DNA of 18,289 nt from positions 1 through 18,289 of the forward strand of contig JANOHV010000198.1 of assembly GCA_031406795.1 (NCBI GenBank), in the 5' to 3' direction. Both the position numbers and the translations under genes were made by a program. Below are positions 2,948 to 15,512 of the stretch, piece after piece (position 1 is the first letter of the stretch; each line of letters starts with the position of its first letter). The notes under the pieces were generated by a model. It worked only from the letters and a program-made list of their open reading frames with translations, did no database searches and had not been told where the DNA came from. Source of the stretch: DATDCY01 sp031406795 [NCBI: Candidatus Rokuibacteriota bacterium]. Lineage in GTDB: Bacteria; JAUVQV01.

Positions 2948-3418
2948 CTATCGGACTCGGGCTCTCGTCTCGCGCTGGGCCTCGCGAAGCGCGTCGCGGT
3001 TCTTGATGGTCTCGCGCTTGTCGTGGATCTTCTTGCCGCGCCCGAGCCCGAGTTCGACCTTCGCCATGCCGTGCTTGAAGTAGATCTTCAGCGGAATCAG
3101 CGAGAGCCCCCGCTCCTTGATCTTGCCGGTGAGCTTGGCGATCTCGCGTTTGTGCAGCAGGATCTTGCGCTTGCGCCGGGGCTCGTGGTTGTTGAGGTTC
3201 CCGAAGGCGTAGGGCTGGATCTGGCAGTCCACGAGCCAGGCCTCCCCGCCGTTGATCACGGCGAAGCCTTCGGTGACGCTGGCCTGCCCGGCGCGCAGCG
3301 ACTTGACCTCGGTGCCCTTGAGCACGAGCCCCCCTTCGAAGGTCTCGAGGATCTCGTACTCGAAGCGCGCTTTCCGGTTGACGCAGACCAGCTTCTCGCC
3401 CGCCCAGGCTTTGGCCAT
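2948..3418 (-). CDS. smpB: SsrA-binding protein SmpB
   Basis: SmpB binds the tRNA-like domain of tmRNA and places it in the A site of stalled ribosomes. The 156-aa protein matches the family length (about 150-160). It shows the hallmarks GTEVKSLRAGQASV, NHEPRRKRKILLHKREI, LIPLKIYFKHGMAKVELGL and the basic C-terminal tail beginning GKKIHDKRETIKNRD. That tail acts as the decoding-centre and mRNA-channel probe in characterised SmpB. ATG 3418 is chosen because AGGGG lies 5 nt upstream; a GTG two codons earlier is in frame but sits inside that Shine-Dalgarno. The upstream ApgM-like gene ends 8 nt before this start, so the two are very likely cotranscribed. The tmRNA gene lies about 2.6 kb away on the same strand. 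Confidence 0.97.
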   Translation of the reverse strand: MAKAWAGEKLVCVNRKARFEYEILETFEGGLVLKGTEVKSLRAGQASVTEGFAVINGGEAWLVDCQIQPYAFGNLNNHEPRRKRKILLHKREIAKLTGKIKERGLSLIPLKIYFKHGMAKVELGLGRGKKIHDKRETIKNRDALREAQRETRARVR

Positions 3419-3426
3419 CGACACCC

Positions 3427-7937: not shown

Positions 7938-10481
7938 ATGGGTCCGAATCGAAAATATTACCTCCCCGGGATCGTCGTCGTGCTGGTGTCCGTGCTGGCC
8001 CTCGTCTTCTTTCTCGTCAACTCCTACCGGCAGACGGTGCGCCTCGTGAAAGAGCGCTTCTTCGTGCAGCAGGCCCTTTTCACGCGGCAGACCGCGCTCG
8101 GCATCGAGAAGAATTTCACGCTGCTGGAGCGCGAAAGCGAGCTGCTTGCCGCCGACCCGGCGCTCCGTGATCCGGACCCCGAAAGAGCCCGCGCGGCGCT
8201 GCAGCGGACCTTCGACTACGTCAAACGTTTCTCGGTGAACGACATCTCCCTGTCGGATCCCGCCGGAAGGATCCGTTTGGCCCTCAACTCCCCCGAGCTG
8301 ATCGGGCGCGACTTTTCCTTCCGCCAGTACTACCGGCGGCTGCGCGAGGCCGCCGGCTCGGCGCCGGTGTACGAGCACATCACCTTCCAGGGAATCCGCA
8401 AGGGGAGCAAGGGGATCATCATCGCGCGGGCCGTGCGCGGCGAAAAGGGGGAATTCCGCGGTTCCCTCGTGTTCGTCGTCACGGTCGGCGAACTGATCGG
8501 CCAGCTCCCGGCCGGCACCAGCGGCTGGGTGATCGACAACGACGGGATCATCCTGTATCACCCGACCCGCGCTGCCGGAACCCGGATCGACGAGAGCGAC
8601 TCCGGGGACCCGGCCTTTGCGCAATTCGTCGCGGCGCTGCGCCGCGGCACGGCGGAGCGCGGGGAGTATTTCTCCGGCCCGGGGGAACGTTCCCGGACGA
8701 TGGCCACCGCGGTGACCATCCAGGTGGCCGACGAGCCGCTCTCGGTGGTCATCGAGACTCCGGAGCATCTGGTCCGCGGGTACCTGCGCGAGTTCCACCT
8801 GGGCACGATCCTCGGCGTCGCCCTCTCCGCGATCGCCGTCTTCGGCAGCCTCTTTCTCGGGCTGGTCCTGCTGCTGCGGACGAACCGCGACCTGGCTCGG
8901 GAGGCGACCACCCGGCTGCAGGCCGAGGATCGCCACCGCGAGAGCGAGGAGCACTTCCGGCTCCTGATCGAATACTCGCCCGTCGCGATGGCGATCGTCG
9001 ACAGCGACGATCGCTTCGTCTTCGCCAACCGCCGCTTCACCGAGACGCTCGGTTACGAACTCGCCGTCGTGCCCGACGTCGAACACTGGATGGCCGCGGC
9101 CTATCCGGACCCGAAGTACCGCCGGGAGATGCAGGCCCGCTGGCTGCAGTTCCGTGAGCGGACGGCGTCCCGGTCCGGGCCGCTGCGCCCCACGGAGTAC
9201 CTGGTCACCGACCGCGAGGGCACCACCCACACCATGGACATCCACGGCGCGCACATCGGACAGCGGTACCTGATCGTGTTCAACGACATCACCGAGCGCC
9301 TGCGGCTGGAGCACCAGCTCCGGCACTCGCAGAAGATGGACTGCTTCGGCCGGCTCGCCGCCGGCGTCGCCCACGATTTCAATAATATCCTGTCCGTAAT
9401 CATGGGGTACGCGGAACTGCTCCAGAGCAGCCTGGAGCAGGACGATCCAAGGCGGGCCTCGCTGAACGTCATTCTCGGTTCGGTGAACAGCGCCGCGAAG
9501 CTGACGAGCAGTCTGCTCGCCTTCAGCCGCAAACAGGTTCTCAACCCCCAGCCGCTCGACCTGGGCGAACTGACGACCGGCGTGCATCGGCTGATCTCGA
9601 GACTCATCGGCGCGGACATCGCGATCGAGACCACGATCGGGCCCGTGGCCGGCACCGTGCTCGCCGACTACGGACAGCTGGAGCAGGTCCTCGTGAACCT
9701 CGCGACCAACGCCCGCGACGCCATGCCGCGGGGGGGGACGATCGGAATCGCGACGGGAACGGCGACCCTCGATGCGGACACCGCCGCCCGGATCGGCGCC
9801 GCGCGCCCCGGGGCCTGTGCGACGCTGACCTTCTCCGACACGGGCGCCGGCATGGACGAGCGGACGCTCGAGCAGATCTTCGAGCCCTTCTTCACGACGA
9901 AGGAACTCGGCCGGGGCACCGGGCTCGGGCTCGCGATCGTCTACGGCATCGTCAAGCAGCACGGCGGCGGCATCGACGTCGCGAGCCGGCCGGGCGCGGG
10001 GACGACCTTCACGATCTACCTGCCGCTGCACGCGAGCGGTCCGGGAGAAGCGCCCGGGGTGGAGGTCGACGCGACCGGACCCGAAGTGCTCGGGCATGGG
10101 GAGACCATTCTGCTCGCCGAAGACGACGCGATGGTGCGCAACTCGGTCGTGCAGACGCTGACGTCGTCCGGCTACCGGGTTCAGGTCGCCGCGGACGGCG
10201 CGGAGGTGGCGCGCATCTATCGGGCGCTCGGCGGCAACGTCGACCTGCTGCTCCTCGACGTCATCATGCCGAAGAAGTCCGGCAAGGACGCGTACGACGA
10301 GATCCGCTCGCGCTGGGGCGAAGTCAAGGTGCTCTTCCTCAGCGGCTACGCCCCCGACCTGGTCTACCACGGAGGCATGCTCGACTCATCCCTGCCGTTC
10401 CTGCAGAAGCCCGTTTCGCGAAGGGCGCTGCTGGAGAAGGTGCGGCAGACGCTCGACGCGGACACGCAGAATACGGCCTGA
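7938..10481 (+). CDS. hybrid sensor histidine kinase with C-terminal receiver domain
   Basis: This 847-aa membrane sensor is complete. A first membrane segment (about 10-28) is followed by an extracytoplasmic region (about 30-280), which looks like a double-Cache sensor (RDFSFRQYYRR near 124, SGWVIDNDGIILYHP near 195). A second membrane segment lies at about 287-313. In the cytoplasm are a PAS domain (about 335-452), a HisKA domain with the phosphoacceptor His479 in GVAHDFNNIL, and a HATPase domain with N-box NLATNARDAM (587-596), DTGAGM (634-639) and GTGLGLA (660-666). A receiver (about 722-840) has E728/D729/D730, phosphorylatable D774 in LLLDVIMP, S802 and K824. The kinase core is of the HDFNN group. 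The terminal receiver has no output domain, so signal would pass onward by phosphorelay. No partner regulator is nearby. GGAGGTGA precedes ATG 7938. Confidence 0.96.
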   Translation: MGPNRKYYLPGIVVVLVSVLALVFFLVNSYRQTVRLVKERFFVQQALFTRQTALGIEKNFTLLERESELLAADPALRDPDPERARAALQRTFDYVKRFSVNDISLSDPAGRIRLALNSPELIGRDFSFRQYYRRLREAAGSAPVYEHITFQGIRKGSKGIIIARAVRGEKGEFRGSLVFVVTVGELIGQLPAGTSGWVIDNDGIILYHPTRAAGTRIDESDSGDPAFAQFVAALRRGTAERGEYFSGPGERSRTMATAVTIQVADEPLSVVIETPEHLVRGYLREFHLGTILGVALSAIAVFGSLFLGLVLLLRTNRDLAREATTRLQAEDRHRESEEHFRLLIEYSPVAMAIVDSDDRFVFANRRFTETLGYELAVVPDVEHWMAAAYPDPKYRREMQARWLQFRERTASRSGPLRPTEYLVTDREGTTHTMDIHGAHIGQRYLIVFNDITERLRLEHQLRHSQKMDCFGRLAAGVAHDFNNILSVIMGYAELLQSSLEQDDPRRASLNVILGSVNSAAKLTSSLLAFSRKQVLNPQPLDLGELTTGVHRLISRLIGADIAIETTIGPVAGTVLADYGQLEQVLVNLATNARDAMPRGGTIGIATGTATLDADTAARIGAARPGACATLTFSDTGAGMDERTLEQIFEPFFTTKELGRGTGLGLAIVYGIVKQHGGGIDVASRPGAGTTFTIYLPLHASGPGEAPGVEVDATGPEVLGHGETILLAEDDAMVRNSVVQTLTSSGYRVQVAADGAEVARIYRALGGNVDLLLLDVIMPKKSGKDAYDEIRSRWGEVKVLFLSGYAPDLVYHGGMLDSSLPFLQKPVSRRALLEKVRQTLDADTQNTA

Positions 10482-10528: not shown

Positions 10529-11503
10529 TCAGCCGCTGAGCAGGCGCCGCGCGCGGTACGAACTGCGCACCAGCGGCCCCGCCGCCACCCGGGCGATCCC
10601 GGCCGCGCGACCGGCCTCCTCGAGCGCGGCGAACTCCTCCGGAAGCCAGTAGCGTTCCACCGGGAGGCTCTGTCGGTCCGGCTGCAGATACTGCCCGATC
10701 GTCAGGAAGCGGACCCCGACCGCGTCCAGATCGCGCATCACAGCGACGACCTCGTCGAATTGCTCGCCGAAACCGACCATGAGGCCGGACTTGGTCGGGA
10801 CCTGCGGGGCGAGTTCCCGGGAGCGGCGCAACAGCGCGAGCGAGCCTTCGTAGTCCGCAAGGGGCCGTACGCGGGGGTAGAGGCGCGGGATGGTCTCGAG
10901 GTTGTGATTGAGGACGGCGGGGCCGGCGGCGAGGACGCTCTCGAGCGCCCCCGGCGCACCGGAGAAATCGGGGACCAGGACTTCGACTGAAGGACCCGGC
11001 CCCGCCCGGACTCCGGCATCTCCTTGCCGTTCTCCGGATGAACAGGGAACCGCACCGGGGCGTCCGGGTGCCGGCCGCGTTGCGGGAGCAGAGCATCCCC
11101 CGAGTGGCATCATTTCCGGATGGCTGTCGCGGATCGCGCCTATCGTTGCCGCGAACTGCGCCGCGCCGCCGTCCGCGAGATCGTCGCGGGTCACCGAAGT
11201 CACGACAACGTACGTCAGCCCGAGACGCCGGACGGCCGCGGCGACCGCCGCCGGTTCCTCCGGGTCGGGCGGCCCGGGCGCCCCCTTGGCGATCGCGCAG
11301 AAGCCGCAGCGCCGCGTGCAGACTTCCCCGAGGATCAGAAAGGTCGCCGTCCCGGCGCCGAAGCACTCGCCACGGTTGGGACAGCGCGCGGACTCGCAGA
11401 CGGTTGACAGGCGCAACTCACGCATCAATCGGCGCACCTCGTGCCCCCCATCGAAATCGGACGGTTTCGGAACGATCCAAGCCGGCTTGAGCATGGCCGG
11501 CAT
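10529..11503 (-). CDS. lipA: lipoyl synthase (radical SAM), with an unusual internal insertion
   Basis: LipA inserts two sulfur atoms into protein-bound octanoyl groups to make lipoyl cofactor. All key motifs are visible in the 324-aa product: the auxiliary-cluster Cys triad C36-x4-C41-x5-C47 (VCESARCPNRGECF), the radical SAM motif C62-x3-C66-x2-C69 (CTRRCGFC), TSVTRDDLADGGA (102-114), NHNLETIPRLY (199-209) and the terminal RSSY motif (313-316). Residues 131-172 are an in-frame Gly/Pro/Ala-rich insertion, placed where other LipA proteins have only a few residues between AIR..HP and VEVLVPDF. Without it the length would be about 282 aa, near the family norm. ATG 11503 is the assumed start; ATG 11494 and TTG 11530 are alternatives, and none has an ideal Shine-Dalgarno. 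The gene is convergent with the kinase gene, with a 47-bp gap and no terminator seen. Confidence 0.93.
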   Translation of the reverse strand: MPAMLKPAWIVPKPSDFDGGHEVRRLMRELRLSTVCESARCPNRGECFGAGTATFLILGEVCTRRCGFCAIAKGAPGPPDPEEPAAVAAAVRRLGLTYVVVTSVTRDDLADGGAAQFAATIGAIRDSHPEMMPLGGCSAPATRPAPGRPGAVPCSSGERQGDAGVRAGPGPSVEVLVPDFSGAPGALESVLAAGPAVLNHNLETIPRLYPRVRPLADYEGSLALLRRSRELAPQVPTKSGLMVGFGEQFDEVVAVMRDLDAVGVRFLTIGQYLQPDRQSLPVERYWLPEEFAALEEAGRAAGIARVAAGPLVRSSYRARRLLSG

Positions 11504-11547
11504 CGTCCACCGCAAACCAACGGGTGTCAATGATCGCGCCGGAACTG

Positions 11548-11799: not shown

Positions 11800-11828
11800 T
11801 TGACAAATCCGTTACAAATCATTATGTT
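11800..11828 (+). promoter_or_regulatory. strong sigma70-type promoter of the EF-G gene
   Basis: A consensus -35 TTGACA (11800-11805) and a -10 TATGTT (11823-11828) are separated by exactly 17 bp, in an AT-rich patch within very GC-rich DNA. Transcription would begin near 11835 and give a leader of about 120 nt before ATG 11957. Confidence 0.8.
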
Positions 11829-11956: not shown

Positions 11957-14041
<2,085 letters not shown>

Positions 14042-14091
14042 TGGCGCCGCAGGCCGCAACCCTTATCTATCTGCGCGACAGGAGCGTCGAG

Positions 14092-14796
14092 ATGCTGAAG
14101 AAAGACCTGATTCTCAAGAACCCGCTGCGGGCCTGGGAGCCCGACACCGGCCACAACACCGCGACCCCGAGGATGGGGCTGGTCGTCGCCCCCCGCGGCT
14201 CCGGCAAGACCGCGGTGCTCGTGCAGTTCGCCCTCGACAGCGTGCTTCGGGGCAACCGCGTCATCCACGTGAGCATCGGGCAGAGCCTCGAGAAGACCAA
14301 GGAGTGGTACGAGGATCTCTTCCAGGAGCTCTCGCGCAGCTACAAGCTCGAGCACGTCGGCGAGGTCCACAGCGAGATCGCCGCCGCCCGGCTGATCATG
14401 ACCTTCAACACCGGCTCGTTCAGCGCCGCGAAGCTCGAGGAGCGCCTCACCGACCTGATCGAGCAGAACATCTTCCACCCCCAGAGCCTCGTCATCGACG
14501 GTTTCGACTTCGCGAACGCCGACGCGGCCCAGGTGCAGGGCCTGCGGGACCTGGTGCAGGCGCGCAAGCTGCACACCTGGTTCTCCGCGGTGCGCCGCCC
14601 CGAGGACAAGCAGGTCAGCGCGCTCGGCGTGCCCGCCCCGTGCGACCGCTTCGAGGGGCTCTTCGACAGCATCCTTTTGATCAACACCGACGGGCACGGC
14701 ATCTCGCTGACGACGCTCAAGAGCGACGTCGCCGCCTCGAAGGACCACCCGCCGATCCGGCTCGACCCCACGACCTTTCTCGTCAACCAGGGTTAG
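14092..14796 (+). CDS. small P-loop ATPase of unknown function
   Basis: This 234-aa cytoplasmic protein has a Walker A motif APRGSGKT (33-40) and a Walker B-like LVIDGFD (133-139). The stretch AVLVQFALDSVLRGNRVIHVSIGQSLEK is laid out as in RecA/KaiC-like folds, where the second strand follows the P-loop helix and ends in VS. There is no membrane segment and no added domain. I cannot assign a function. ATG 14092 is chosen because GGAG lies 7 nt upstream and MLKKDLILKNPLR is a plausible start. An in-frame ATG at 14041 overlaps the EF-G stop codon and would add 17 residues. The gene follows EF-G by 50 nt on the same strand and precedes a SLOG-like gene, with which it probably forms a functional pair (inference from adjacency). 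Confidence 0.85.
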   Translation: MLKKDLILKNPLRAWEPDTGHNTATPRMGLVVAPRGSGKTAVLVQFALDSVLRGNRVIHVSIGQSLEKTKEWYEDLFQELSRSYKLEHVGEVHSEIAAARLIMTFNTGSFSAAKLEERLTDLIEQNIFHPQSLVIDGFDFANADAAQVQGLRDLVQARKLHTWFSAVRRPEDKQVSALGVPAPCDRFEGLFDSILLINTDGHGISLTTLKSDVAASKDHPPIRLDPTTFLVNQG

Positions 14797-14921
14797 CAGG
14801 CAGCTGAAAATGGCCCATCTGCGGCGTTGTCCTCCTCCCGGCTCCCTGCGGCGGGCACCAGCCCGCCTCAGTCGCCGGATCGTCGTCCGCCTTGCACCTG
14901 GGCCCTTTTGAGCAGCCTGCC
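14796..14921. repeat. imperfect palindrome of about 125 bp between the ATPase and SLOG-like genes
   Basis: The outer arms are GGCAGCTGAAAATGGCCCATCTGC on the left and, reverse-complemented, GGCAGGCTGCTCAAAAGGGCCCAGGTGC on the right. The centre is GGCGGGC-ACCA-GCCCGCC (around 14850). It starts on the last base of the ATPase stop codon and ends 27 bp before the next start codon. The terminal words (GCAGCTGAAAA and TTTTGAGCAGCCTGC) recall dispersed palindromes common in Desulfuromonadales genomes (from memory, not searched). Confidence 0.75.
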
Positions 14922-14948
14922 AAGAGAGCATTGCATAGGAGAGGAGCA

Positions 14949-15512
14949 ATGGTGATGAAGGCGAGTGAATCTATCCTGTTCAGCGGCGGCGCACCGGGCG
15001 TCGAGGCGGCCTTCGGCGCCGCGGCCGAGCGCCATGGCCTCGAGGAGGTCAACTTCACCTTCGCGGGTCACACGGACGCGCGCAGCCGCGGCATCCGGGT
15101 GCTGACCCACGAGGAACTCGAGCGCGGGGACGTGAGTCTGAGCTACGTCTCGAAGCTGATGAACCGCAGCTTTCCCAACGCCCCGCTGATCCGCAAGGTC
15201 CTCCAGACGATCTGGTACCAGGTCAACTCCGGGCAGGAAATCTACGTCGTCGGCTGGATCCAGGAGGACGGCACTGTTCGCGGCGGCACCGGCTGGGGCG
15301 CGGAGTTCGCCAAGCTCTGCAACAAGCCGCTCTTCGTGTTCGACCAGGCCAAGGGCCGCTGGTTCACCTGGAGCGGCGAGGTCTGGGTCGCCTGCGAGCT
15401 GCCGGTCGTCACCCACGCGCACATCACCGGGACAGGCACCCGCTTCCTCGAAGAGAGCGGCAAGCGGGCCATCGAGGAGCTGTTCGACCGCTCGTTCGGC
15501 CCCGCGAAGTAG
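14949..15512 (+). CDS. Rossmann/SLOG-like protein of unknown function
   Basis: The 187-aa protein opens with a beta strand and a Gly loop, SILFSGGAPGVEAAFG (8-23). It later has a second Gly-rich loop, RGGTGWGAEFAKLCNKPLFVFD (111-132). This layout, a nucleotide-binding loop after strand 1 and a GGxG..E motif before a strand, resembles SLOG superfamily proteins (LOG, TIR-sensor-like nucleotide binders); this is a fold-level inference. Other features are THEELERGDVSLSYVSKLM (53-71), LQTIWYQVNSGQEIYVVG (85-102) and a GTGTRF motif near 161. No signal peptide or membrane segment is seen. ATG 14949 is chosen for the GGAGAGGAG just upstream; ATG 14955 is possible. The TAG stop is the first TAG of a dispersed palindrome that begins right there. 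It probably works with the preceding P-loop ATPase. Confidence 0.85.
   Translation: MVMKASESILFSGGAPGVEAAFGAAAERHGLEEVNFTFAGHTDARSRGIRVLTHEELERGDVSLSYVSKLMNRSFPNAPLIRKVLQTIWYQVNSGQEIYVVGWIQEDGTVRGGTGWGAEFAKLCNKPLFVFDQAKGRWFTWSGEVWVACELPVVTHAHITGTGTRFLEESGKRAIEELFDRSFGPAK

Follow-up and report, generated by a model that had tools for sequence, protein, structure and literature searches.

Organization of the locus

The window, the whole stretch of DNA that was analyzed, is 18,289 nucleotides (nt) long and comes from a Candidatus Rokuibacteriota bacterium (contig JANOHV010000198.1). It carries three neighboring genes on the + strand, coding for an elongation factor G (EF-G; 11957..14041), a single-domain ATPase of 234 amino acids (aa) (14092..14796) and a protein with a predicted SLOG fold (14949..15512); a UppP/BacA gene comes next. 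The EF-G is assigned by its sequence to spdEFG1, a bacterial factor related to mitochondrial EFG1, and the ATPase gene lies directly behind a spdEFG1 gene in nearly every genome in which it was found. A functional tie between the ATPase and spdEFG1 is the conclusion with the best support.

A sequence-only reading, made by a model from the letters and a list of open reading frames (ORFs), had singled out the ATPase and SLOG genes as a pair. Their common strand, their coordinates, the position of Walker A (residues 33-40) and the Walker B sequence LVIDGFD were as it had given them. Walker A reads APRGSGKT (codons 14188..14211, +), and Walker B occupies residues 133-139 (codons 14488..14508, +). 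The ATPase starts at ATG 14092, 50 nt after the EF-G stop at 14041, behind an AGGAG resembling a ribosome binding site (14080..14084, +). The SLOG gene follows at a distance of 152 nt when counted to the ATG at 14949, which is again preceded by an AGGAG of this kind (14942-14946, +). This start gives a protein of 187 aa, and the ATG at 14955 gives one of 185 aa; the start in the ORF list, TTG 14892, lies 5' of the conserved start. Terminator-like sites were looked for on the + strand between the EF-G and SLOG genes and none was found. A consensus scan picked up a promoter-like site 5' of EF-G, TTGACA-17-TATGTT (11800..11828, +; 10/12 matches), which bears no weight on function. The two results together are consistent with an operon read as one transcript, though they do not prove it. 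The G+C content at third codon positions is similar for EF-G (0.96), ATPase (0.97) and SLOG (0.93), thus a recent foreign origin is not indicated.

The EF-G is of the spdEFG1 type

The window EF-G matches TIGR00484 with 990.7 bits, well over the cut-off of 659.4. Its best match among Protein Data Bank (PDB) structures is human mitochondrial EFG1 (829 bits), ahead of the T. thermophilus-type (676) and E. coli-type (655) factors. It has a KDG insertion in switch I, read as KGKDGVG. The same insertion is present in 44 of the 46 rows of the spdEFG1 branch of the EF-G tree, a branch that is separate from the other EF-G paralogues; the tree holds no mitochondrial sequences, one EF-G was entered twice, and the rows were chosen by ATPase status. 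A KDG insertion in switch I is given as a mark of spdEFG1 in excerpts of PMC3150367. By closest structure and by this insertion, the window protein belongs with mitochondrial EFG1 and spdEFG1.

The bacterial spdEFG1 is the counterpart of the mitochondrial translocase EFG1 and represents one half of a split EF-G. Spirochaetes and Planctomycetes are known carriers. A search of 15 genomes returned 2-4 EF-G-type matches in each; spdEFG1 was present in 13 of these, always accompanied by at least one more distant paralogue. For other spdEFG1 proteins, translocation without ribosome recycling has been reported in excerpts of PMC4342817 and PMC3150367, and these same excerpts mention no ATPase partner of spdEFG1.

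The ATPase gene adjoins spdEFG1 in three phyla

Three phylum draws were searched by profile: Desulfobacterota (297 genomes), Myxococcota (193) and Acidobacteriota (149). In the large draws a part of the first-look candidates was scored (e.g. 14/24), so that the counts of absences may be too high, particularly for SLOG. The ATPase was found in 90 Desulfobacterota, 28 Myxococcota and 11 Acidobacteriota genomes, a total of 129, in single copy except for two copies in genome G032. Homologues at this frequency place the ATPase ORF above chance, and both it and the SLOG ORF are confirmed as real, conserved genes.

In 127 of these 129 genomes the ATPase lies directly 3' of spdEFG1 on the same strand, and in the other two (G378, Desulfobacterota; G044, Myxococcota) it is at a contig end. 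The arrangement holds for 89 of the 90 Desulfobacterota ATPases, with a median match-to-match gap of 72 nt and the genes of G378 split over contigs. It holds likewise for 27 of the 28 in Myxococcota, the genes of G044 being split and the EF-G of G192 being cut by a contig end, and for all 11 in Acidobacteriota, although in G578 and G615 just the tail of the EF-G gene is left where the contig stops. The sequence-only reading had noted that the pair sits behind EF-G and had treated this as weak evidence; it turned out to be the strongest and widest signal at the locus, with the EF-G being specifically spdEFG1.

The two genes coincide almost fully in Desulfobacterota. spdEFG1 occurs in 92 of the 297 genomes, and all 90 ATPase genomes are among these 92. 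Only G383 and G289 carry spdEFG1 without the ATPase, and no ATPase match was obtained in any genome of this draw that lacks spdEFG1. In Myxococcota spdEFG1 is more widespread (140 of 193 genomes), and 27 genomes appear in both the ATPase and spdEFG1 lists; G192 is missing from the latter because of its truncated EF-G. For Acidobacteriota, the counts cover ATPase and SLOG.

The EF-G tree has 27 ATPase-linked rows, and a single branch of 30 rows contains them all, whereas the sister branch, with 16 rows, contains none; this shows clustering rather than a rate since the rows were selected by ATPase status. Among the rows of this tree, the ATPase was seen next to spdEFG1 and next to none of the 17 remaining EF-Gs. 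Most other neighbors vary between genomes, close relatives excepted, so the ATPase-spdEFG1 adjacency has outlived them. Since ORF calling in this survey picked up shadow ORFs in some cases, its labelled genes were relied on; long open frames overlapping EF-G at L047, L059, L081 and L083 were taken to be such shadow frames.

Regions behind spdEFG1 in ATPase-less genomes were searched for a replaced or divergent ATPase. Among 20 regions, one had no EF-G and two had no listed downstream ORF. In the 17 usable ones (15 from the Myxococcota and 2 from the Desulfobacterota draw, up to six ORFs each) no ORF matched the ATPase or SLOG profile. At three Myxococcota loci (L227, L228, L230) what comes after an ATPase-less spdEFG1 is, as judged by eye, a gene resembling DEAD-box helicases, with an ABC-F-like gene as well in some genomes.

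The ATPase has a predicted RecA-type core and a possibly altered catalytic position

Pfam matches of the window ATPase are all below cut-off, the KaiC family (PF06745) scoring 24.6 against a cut-off of 26.6 bits and AAA families also being sub-threshold. It is thus a member of the RecA/KaiC/DnaB superfamily at large and stands outside the KaiC family PF06745. As a single query it gave no match in the PDB set; a profile of eight ATPase homologues reached a T4 DnaB-like helicase at E 2.7e-6 and RadA at E 0.005.

A natural ATPase-SLOG fusion, L189 from genome G330, was modelled with high confidence (pLDDT 93, pTM 0.83) as two domains. Residues 8-240 of the model match T4 gp41 (Z 22.3), DnaB (Z about 21-22), RadA (Z 19.8) and KaiC (Z 19.5). 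The ATPase fold is therefore predicted to be of the RecA/DnaB/KaiC type, a call that rests on this modelled homologue rather than on the window ATPase itself. The earlier description of a RecA/KaiC-like ATPase is in agreement with the profile match, the conserved Walker motifs and these fold scores.

The Walker A residues G36, G38 and K39 are conserved in 73/73 aligned homologues and the Walker B aspartate, D136, in 72/73, the window protein included. The family shares the RecA fold and both Walker motifs with the KaiC, RadA and DnaB-type ATPases. It differs from them in that the window protein is a stand-alone single domain and scores below the Pfam cut-offs, and in that the place that seems to correspond to the catalytic residue is mostly Gly or Gln across the family. 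In KaiC and DnaB a catalytic Glu follows the strand after Walker A. The corresponding columns, matched by eye, are 63 (G 57, D 13, E 1; n=73) and 64 (Q 44, E 13, D 9). The apparent replacement of the acidic residue in most of the family suggests slow hydrolysis or a switch-like role. Viral contigs were also searched for relatives of the ATPase and none was found; a viral origin was accordingly set aside.

The downstream protein has a predicted SLOG fold

The SLOG protein was modelled with 37 homologues to high confidence (pLDDT 93.0, pTM 0.89). The first-ranked Foldseek match is 3imk (probability 1.00, E 3.7e-3), and VIA superimposes the two with a Z score of 13.8 and a root mean square deviation of 3.1 over 141 residues at 16% identity, the next match having a Z of 5.7. 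The other Foldseek matches are generic Rossmann folds; the listed rows include no classical LOG or DprA structure, which carries no weight against either family. The entry 3imk is a putative molybdenum carrier from Syntrophus aciditrophicus (MoCo-carrier/YpsA-like) that we take to be a SLOG member, and it thus has the overall fold of the modelled window protein. Excerpts of PMC6459960 cite a molybdenum-cofactor carrier paper among their SLOG examples. The confident model and its match to 3imk bear out the SLOG-like layout with Gly-rich loops that had been proposed for this protein.

Sequence profiles are less informative. Searched against the PDB set, the SLOG profile gave chance-level matches only and the single protein gave none. 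The family matches are all weak: PHROG 768, DprA-like, at E 5e-4, and Pfam YAcAr (PF10686) at 14.3-14.5 bits. With E values of up to 1 allowed, 13 of 38 members matched YAcAr, the best at 0.0086, and membership was rejected since the score is below the cut-off of 28.2. The protein encoded at 14949-15512 is therefore predicted, from its model, to be a SLOG fold that lies outside the Pfam families tested.

Two motifs stand out in the alignment of 110 rows, in which genome G023 was entered twice. A GxE motif (residues 15-17 from ATG 14955; 14997..15005, +) has G15 and E17 in 110/110 rows. A GGTGWxxE-type loop, GGTGWGAE in the window protein (residues 110-117 from ATG 14955; 15282..15305, +), is found in 106/110. 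According to excerpts of PMC6459960, GxD/E is the signature of the YpsA clade within SLOG; the GxE motif fits this signature. PGGxGTxxE is described as the nucleotide-binding motif of LOG in excerpts of PMC4979012, and GGTGWxxE resembles it, with a Gly-rich loop and a trailing Glu in both. The glycine-rich ligand loops expected of a SLOG protein are thus present. The window sequence RGGTGWGAE differs from the LOG phosphoribohydrolase motif in having Trp for Thr and no leading Pro, and the catalytic Arg of LOG has no established counterpart. Filing as a LOG phosphoribohydrolase was rejected for the lack of PGGxGTxxE; a LOG-like mode of working may nevertheless apply.

A first scan gave 39 loci with SLOG relatives, 31 of them at 58-73% identity, one at 54% (L031) and seven at 44-50% (L033-L039). 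One relative, L013:1263-1823, contains two in-frame stops, indicating either a broken gene or a sequencing error.

SLOG is linked to the ATPase, more loosely and in several arrangements

Seven of the 39 first-scan SLOG loci also hold EF-G and the ATPase. The gene order is SLOG-EF-G-ATPase in five and EF-G-ATPase-SLOG in two, both of the latter being fused. The linkage is tightest in Myxococcota, where each of the 27 genomes with SLOG also has the ATPase and 26 of the 28 ATPase genomes have the two profiles in a single open frame. The exceptions are G046, without a SLOG match, and G144, in which the frames are split.

Desulfobacterota show a statistical association. Among 297 genomes, 41 have both genes, 49 the ATPase only, 35 SLOG only and 172 neither of them (Fisher p 5e-7, with no correction for kinship). 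Six of the 41 have the two fused or close: G231 and G330 (checked) and G301 and G406 (matching open frames) are fused, and in G002 and G342 SLOG lies about 3 kb upstream. In Acidobacteriota, SLOG occurs in 13 of 149 genomes; two of these also have the ATPase, and in G570 the genes are fused.

SLOGs that are fused or linked to EF-G appear in at least three places on the SLOG tree: the group or groups of fusions, a group of Desulfobulbales type, and the window. The row nearest to the window SLOG, L014, is from a genome that has the ATPase beside EF-G on another contig. The link between ATPase and SLOG is thus real, yet looser than that between ATPase and spdEFG1. The gene pair proposed by the sequence-only reading stands insofar as the two co-occur above expectation and are often one polypeptide, and neither of the outcomes it had named as damaging, homologues that do not co-occur or a non-SLOG fold, was found. 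A strict two-gene pair was rejected, since 35 of the 76 Desulfobacterota SLOG genomes have no ATPase match. Nor were the two genes seen together away from EF-G, a point that reading had wanted surveyed, in any of the neighborhoods examined; the one ATPase copy seen away from EF-G has no SLOG match in the 2.2 kb of its locus.

A second ribosomal GTPase beside SLOG

A separate SLOG branch consists of genes located a few tens of nt upstream of TypA/BipA, also a ribosomal GTPase. This arrangement accounts for 9 of the 39 first-scan loci (L012 by a contig-end fragment) and for 9 of 30 loci from the Desulfobacterota draw; the identity of TypA was checked with TIGR01394 in two loci. SLOG is directly 5' of TypA/BipA at L010, L011, L018, L021, L022, L023, L025, L028, L100, L101, L112-L117 and L119.

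Other SLOG neighbors include genes with domains of MnmE, Jag/R3H, Ham1, MgsA-type AAA+, RNase Y, class I tRNA synthetase or UvrA, a mixed set in which some relate to translation or nucleotides and others do not. Three kinds of surroundings recur for stand-alone SLOG genes, with one representative of each domain-checked: a Ham1-type pyrophosphatase with an aminotransferase (L159, L162, L166), MnmE with Jag (L157, L160, L161, L165), and RNase Y, class I tRNA synthetase and UvrA-like genes (L006, L008, L009).

A model for ATPase and SLOG function

We consider it slightly on the probable side that the ATPase serves spdEFG1 as a dedicated partner and ATP-dependent switch, with SLOG as an accessory nucleotide module where present. 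This reading draws on the adjacency in 127/129 genomes together with the fusions and the SLOG genes from three separate tree positions at the EF-G-ATPase locus, and on the other SLOG branch just upstream of TypA. In the proposed mechanism, the ATPase would bind ATP on its RecA core and act as a slow switch. It would contact spdEFG1, or the spdEFG1-ribosome complex, and alter how active or available it is or how it is assembled. Some of the lineages would add a SLOG protein, fused to the ATPase, encoded nearby or perhaps recruited in trans. Its pocket might bind or cleave an adenine or NAD-type nucleotide, and the resulting state would be passed to the ATPase. Regulation of spdEFG1 by the ATPase as an ATP switch, and of SLOG as the reader or cleaver of a nucleotide, appears the most likely mechanism and has about an even chance of being right, judging from folds, motifs and context.

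Several findings weigh against this reading. First, 113 of the 140 Myxococcota spdEFG1 genomes have no ATPase match, so spdEFG1 works without the ATPase. Second, the clustering on the EF-G tree argues that the adjacency is largely a single inherited state and not 127 independent events. Third, the second ATPase-like copy in the Myxococcota draw, L070 (G032:C468, 108-830, -), lacks an EF-G within 1.4 kb on its upstream side, where it is preceded by a gene that is urocanase-like by eye. On the SLOG side, 49 of the 90 Desulfobacterota ATPase genomes have no SLOG match, in addition to the SLOG genomes without the ATPase given above, and in 35 of the 41 genomes with both the two genes are far apart or on different contigs. 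Finally, the window SLOG itself is in a branch of genes mostly without a nearby ATPase and not in the fused branch, so its present position may be secondary or retained.

Among the alternatives, the one that fares best would have the ATPase fold, assemble or repair spdEFG1 as its dedicated factor, with SLOG a loosely coupled stress sensor; we regard it as improbable, although as one of the two main rivals. Eukaryotic eEF2 has chaperone factors, e.g. Hgh1/Cns1, that provide a comparison. In its favor, the ATPase follows spdEFG1 in Desulfobacterota and, among the EF-G rows of the tree, was seen beside spdEFG1 and not beside the others; a RecA-type core can also remodel partners. The many spdEFG1 genomes without an ATPase match argue against it, and we know of no RecA/KaiC-type ATPases that serve as folding chaperones.

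A somewhat less probable alternative is that the unit is EF-G plus ATPase only and that the window SLOG, as a nucleotide enzyme or sensor, is functionally independent, its place being due to chance or recent. The grouping of the window SLOG with genes away from the ATPase, the separate contigs in the genome of L014 and the Desulfobacterota distribution all lend themselves to this explanation. It is harder to reconcile with the SLOGs of separate tree positions that came to lie at the EF-G-ATPase locus in varied orders, with the fusions in many genomes and with the complete co-occurrence in Myxococcota.

Two further explanations are unlikely. The ATPase might ride with spdEFG1 for expression from a shared promoter and have a role unrelated to translation; adjacency alone is no proof of function and L070 is away from EF-G, but the link was kept across three phyla while most neighbors changed, and Desulfobacterota genomes without spdEFG1 gave no ATPase match. 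Least probable, by a little, is a nucleotide-signal defence or abortive-infection unit with EF-G as its target and co-location serving expression: SLOG domains do occur in immune systems that signal by NAD or ADP-ribose (excerpts of PMC6459960 and PMC9503650) and EF-G is an obvious target for translation shutdown, but the genes are inherited alongside a core gene and PADLOC matches are weak (mad8 at E 2e-4 for the window ATPase, typeIV_DinG at E 4e-4 for a single fusion, and nothing for SLOG). As a possible nucleotide sensor, the window SLOG resembles that of Thoeris ThsA (SIR2-SLOG) and further SLOG signalling systems; it differs in having no TIR or SIR2 gene beside it, its partner being an ATPase beside EF-G.

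The folds and the EF-G type are already known, and what would be new is a device role of the ATPase and SLOG with spdEFG1. Searches of open-licence papers on SLOG with EF-G or translational GTPases, and on spdEFG1, yielded no prior description of such a device; for SLOG with EF-G they turned up a viral NAD survey. In its fullest form, the dedicated-partner reading would have a KaiC/DnaB-like ATP switch and a SLOG sensor or nucleotide-cleaver dedicated to a mitochondrial-type EF-G, coupling translocation to nucleotide status, with the same SLOG module serving TypA elsewhere; this form is tentative and, on balance, doubtful. If true, SLOG proteins would be regulators of ribosomal GTPases, and their fusion to the ATPase and position beside TypA would tie nucleotide sensing to these enzymes. 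The presence of the ATPase in 90 of 92 Desulfobacterota spdEFG1 carriers gives a concrete handle on why bacteria keep spdEFG1 besides other EF-Gs and on how it is controlled.

Other features of the window

The remainder of the window carries a tmRNA gene (20-380, -) with the tag ANTDYALAA and a 158-aa ORF that is SmpB-like by eye (2948-3424, -). Between them lies a 795-aa ORF (550-2937, +) whose start resembles a signal peptide by eye and which has no Pfam match at 1e-5. A hybrid sensor kinase (7938-10481, +) combines dCache, PAS, HisKA, HATPase_c and receiver domains in a single protein. It is followed by an ORF that by eye is lipoyl-synthase-like (10529-11530, -), with a Pro/Gly/Ala-rich stretch in its middle that resembles an insert.

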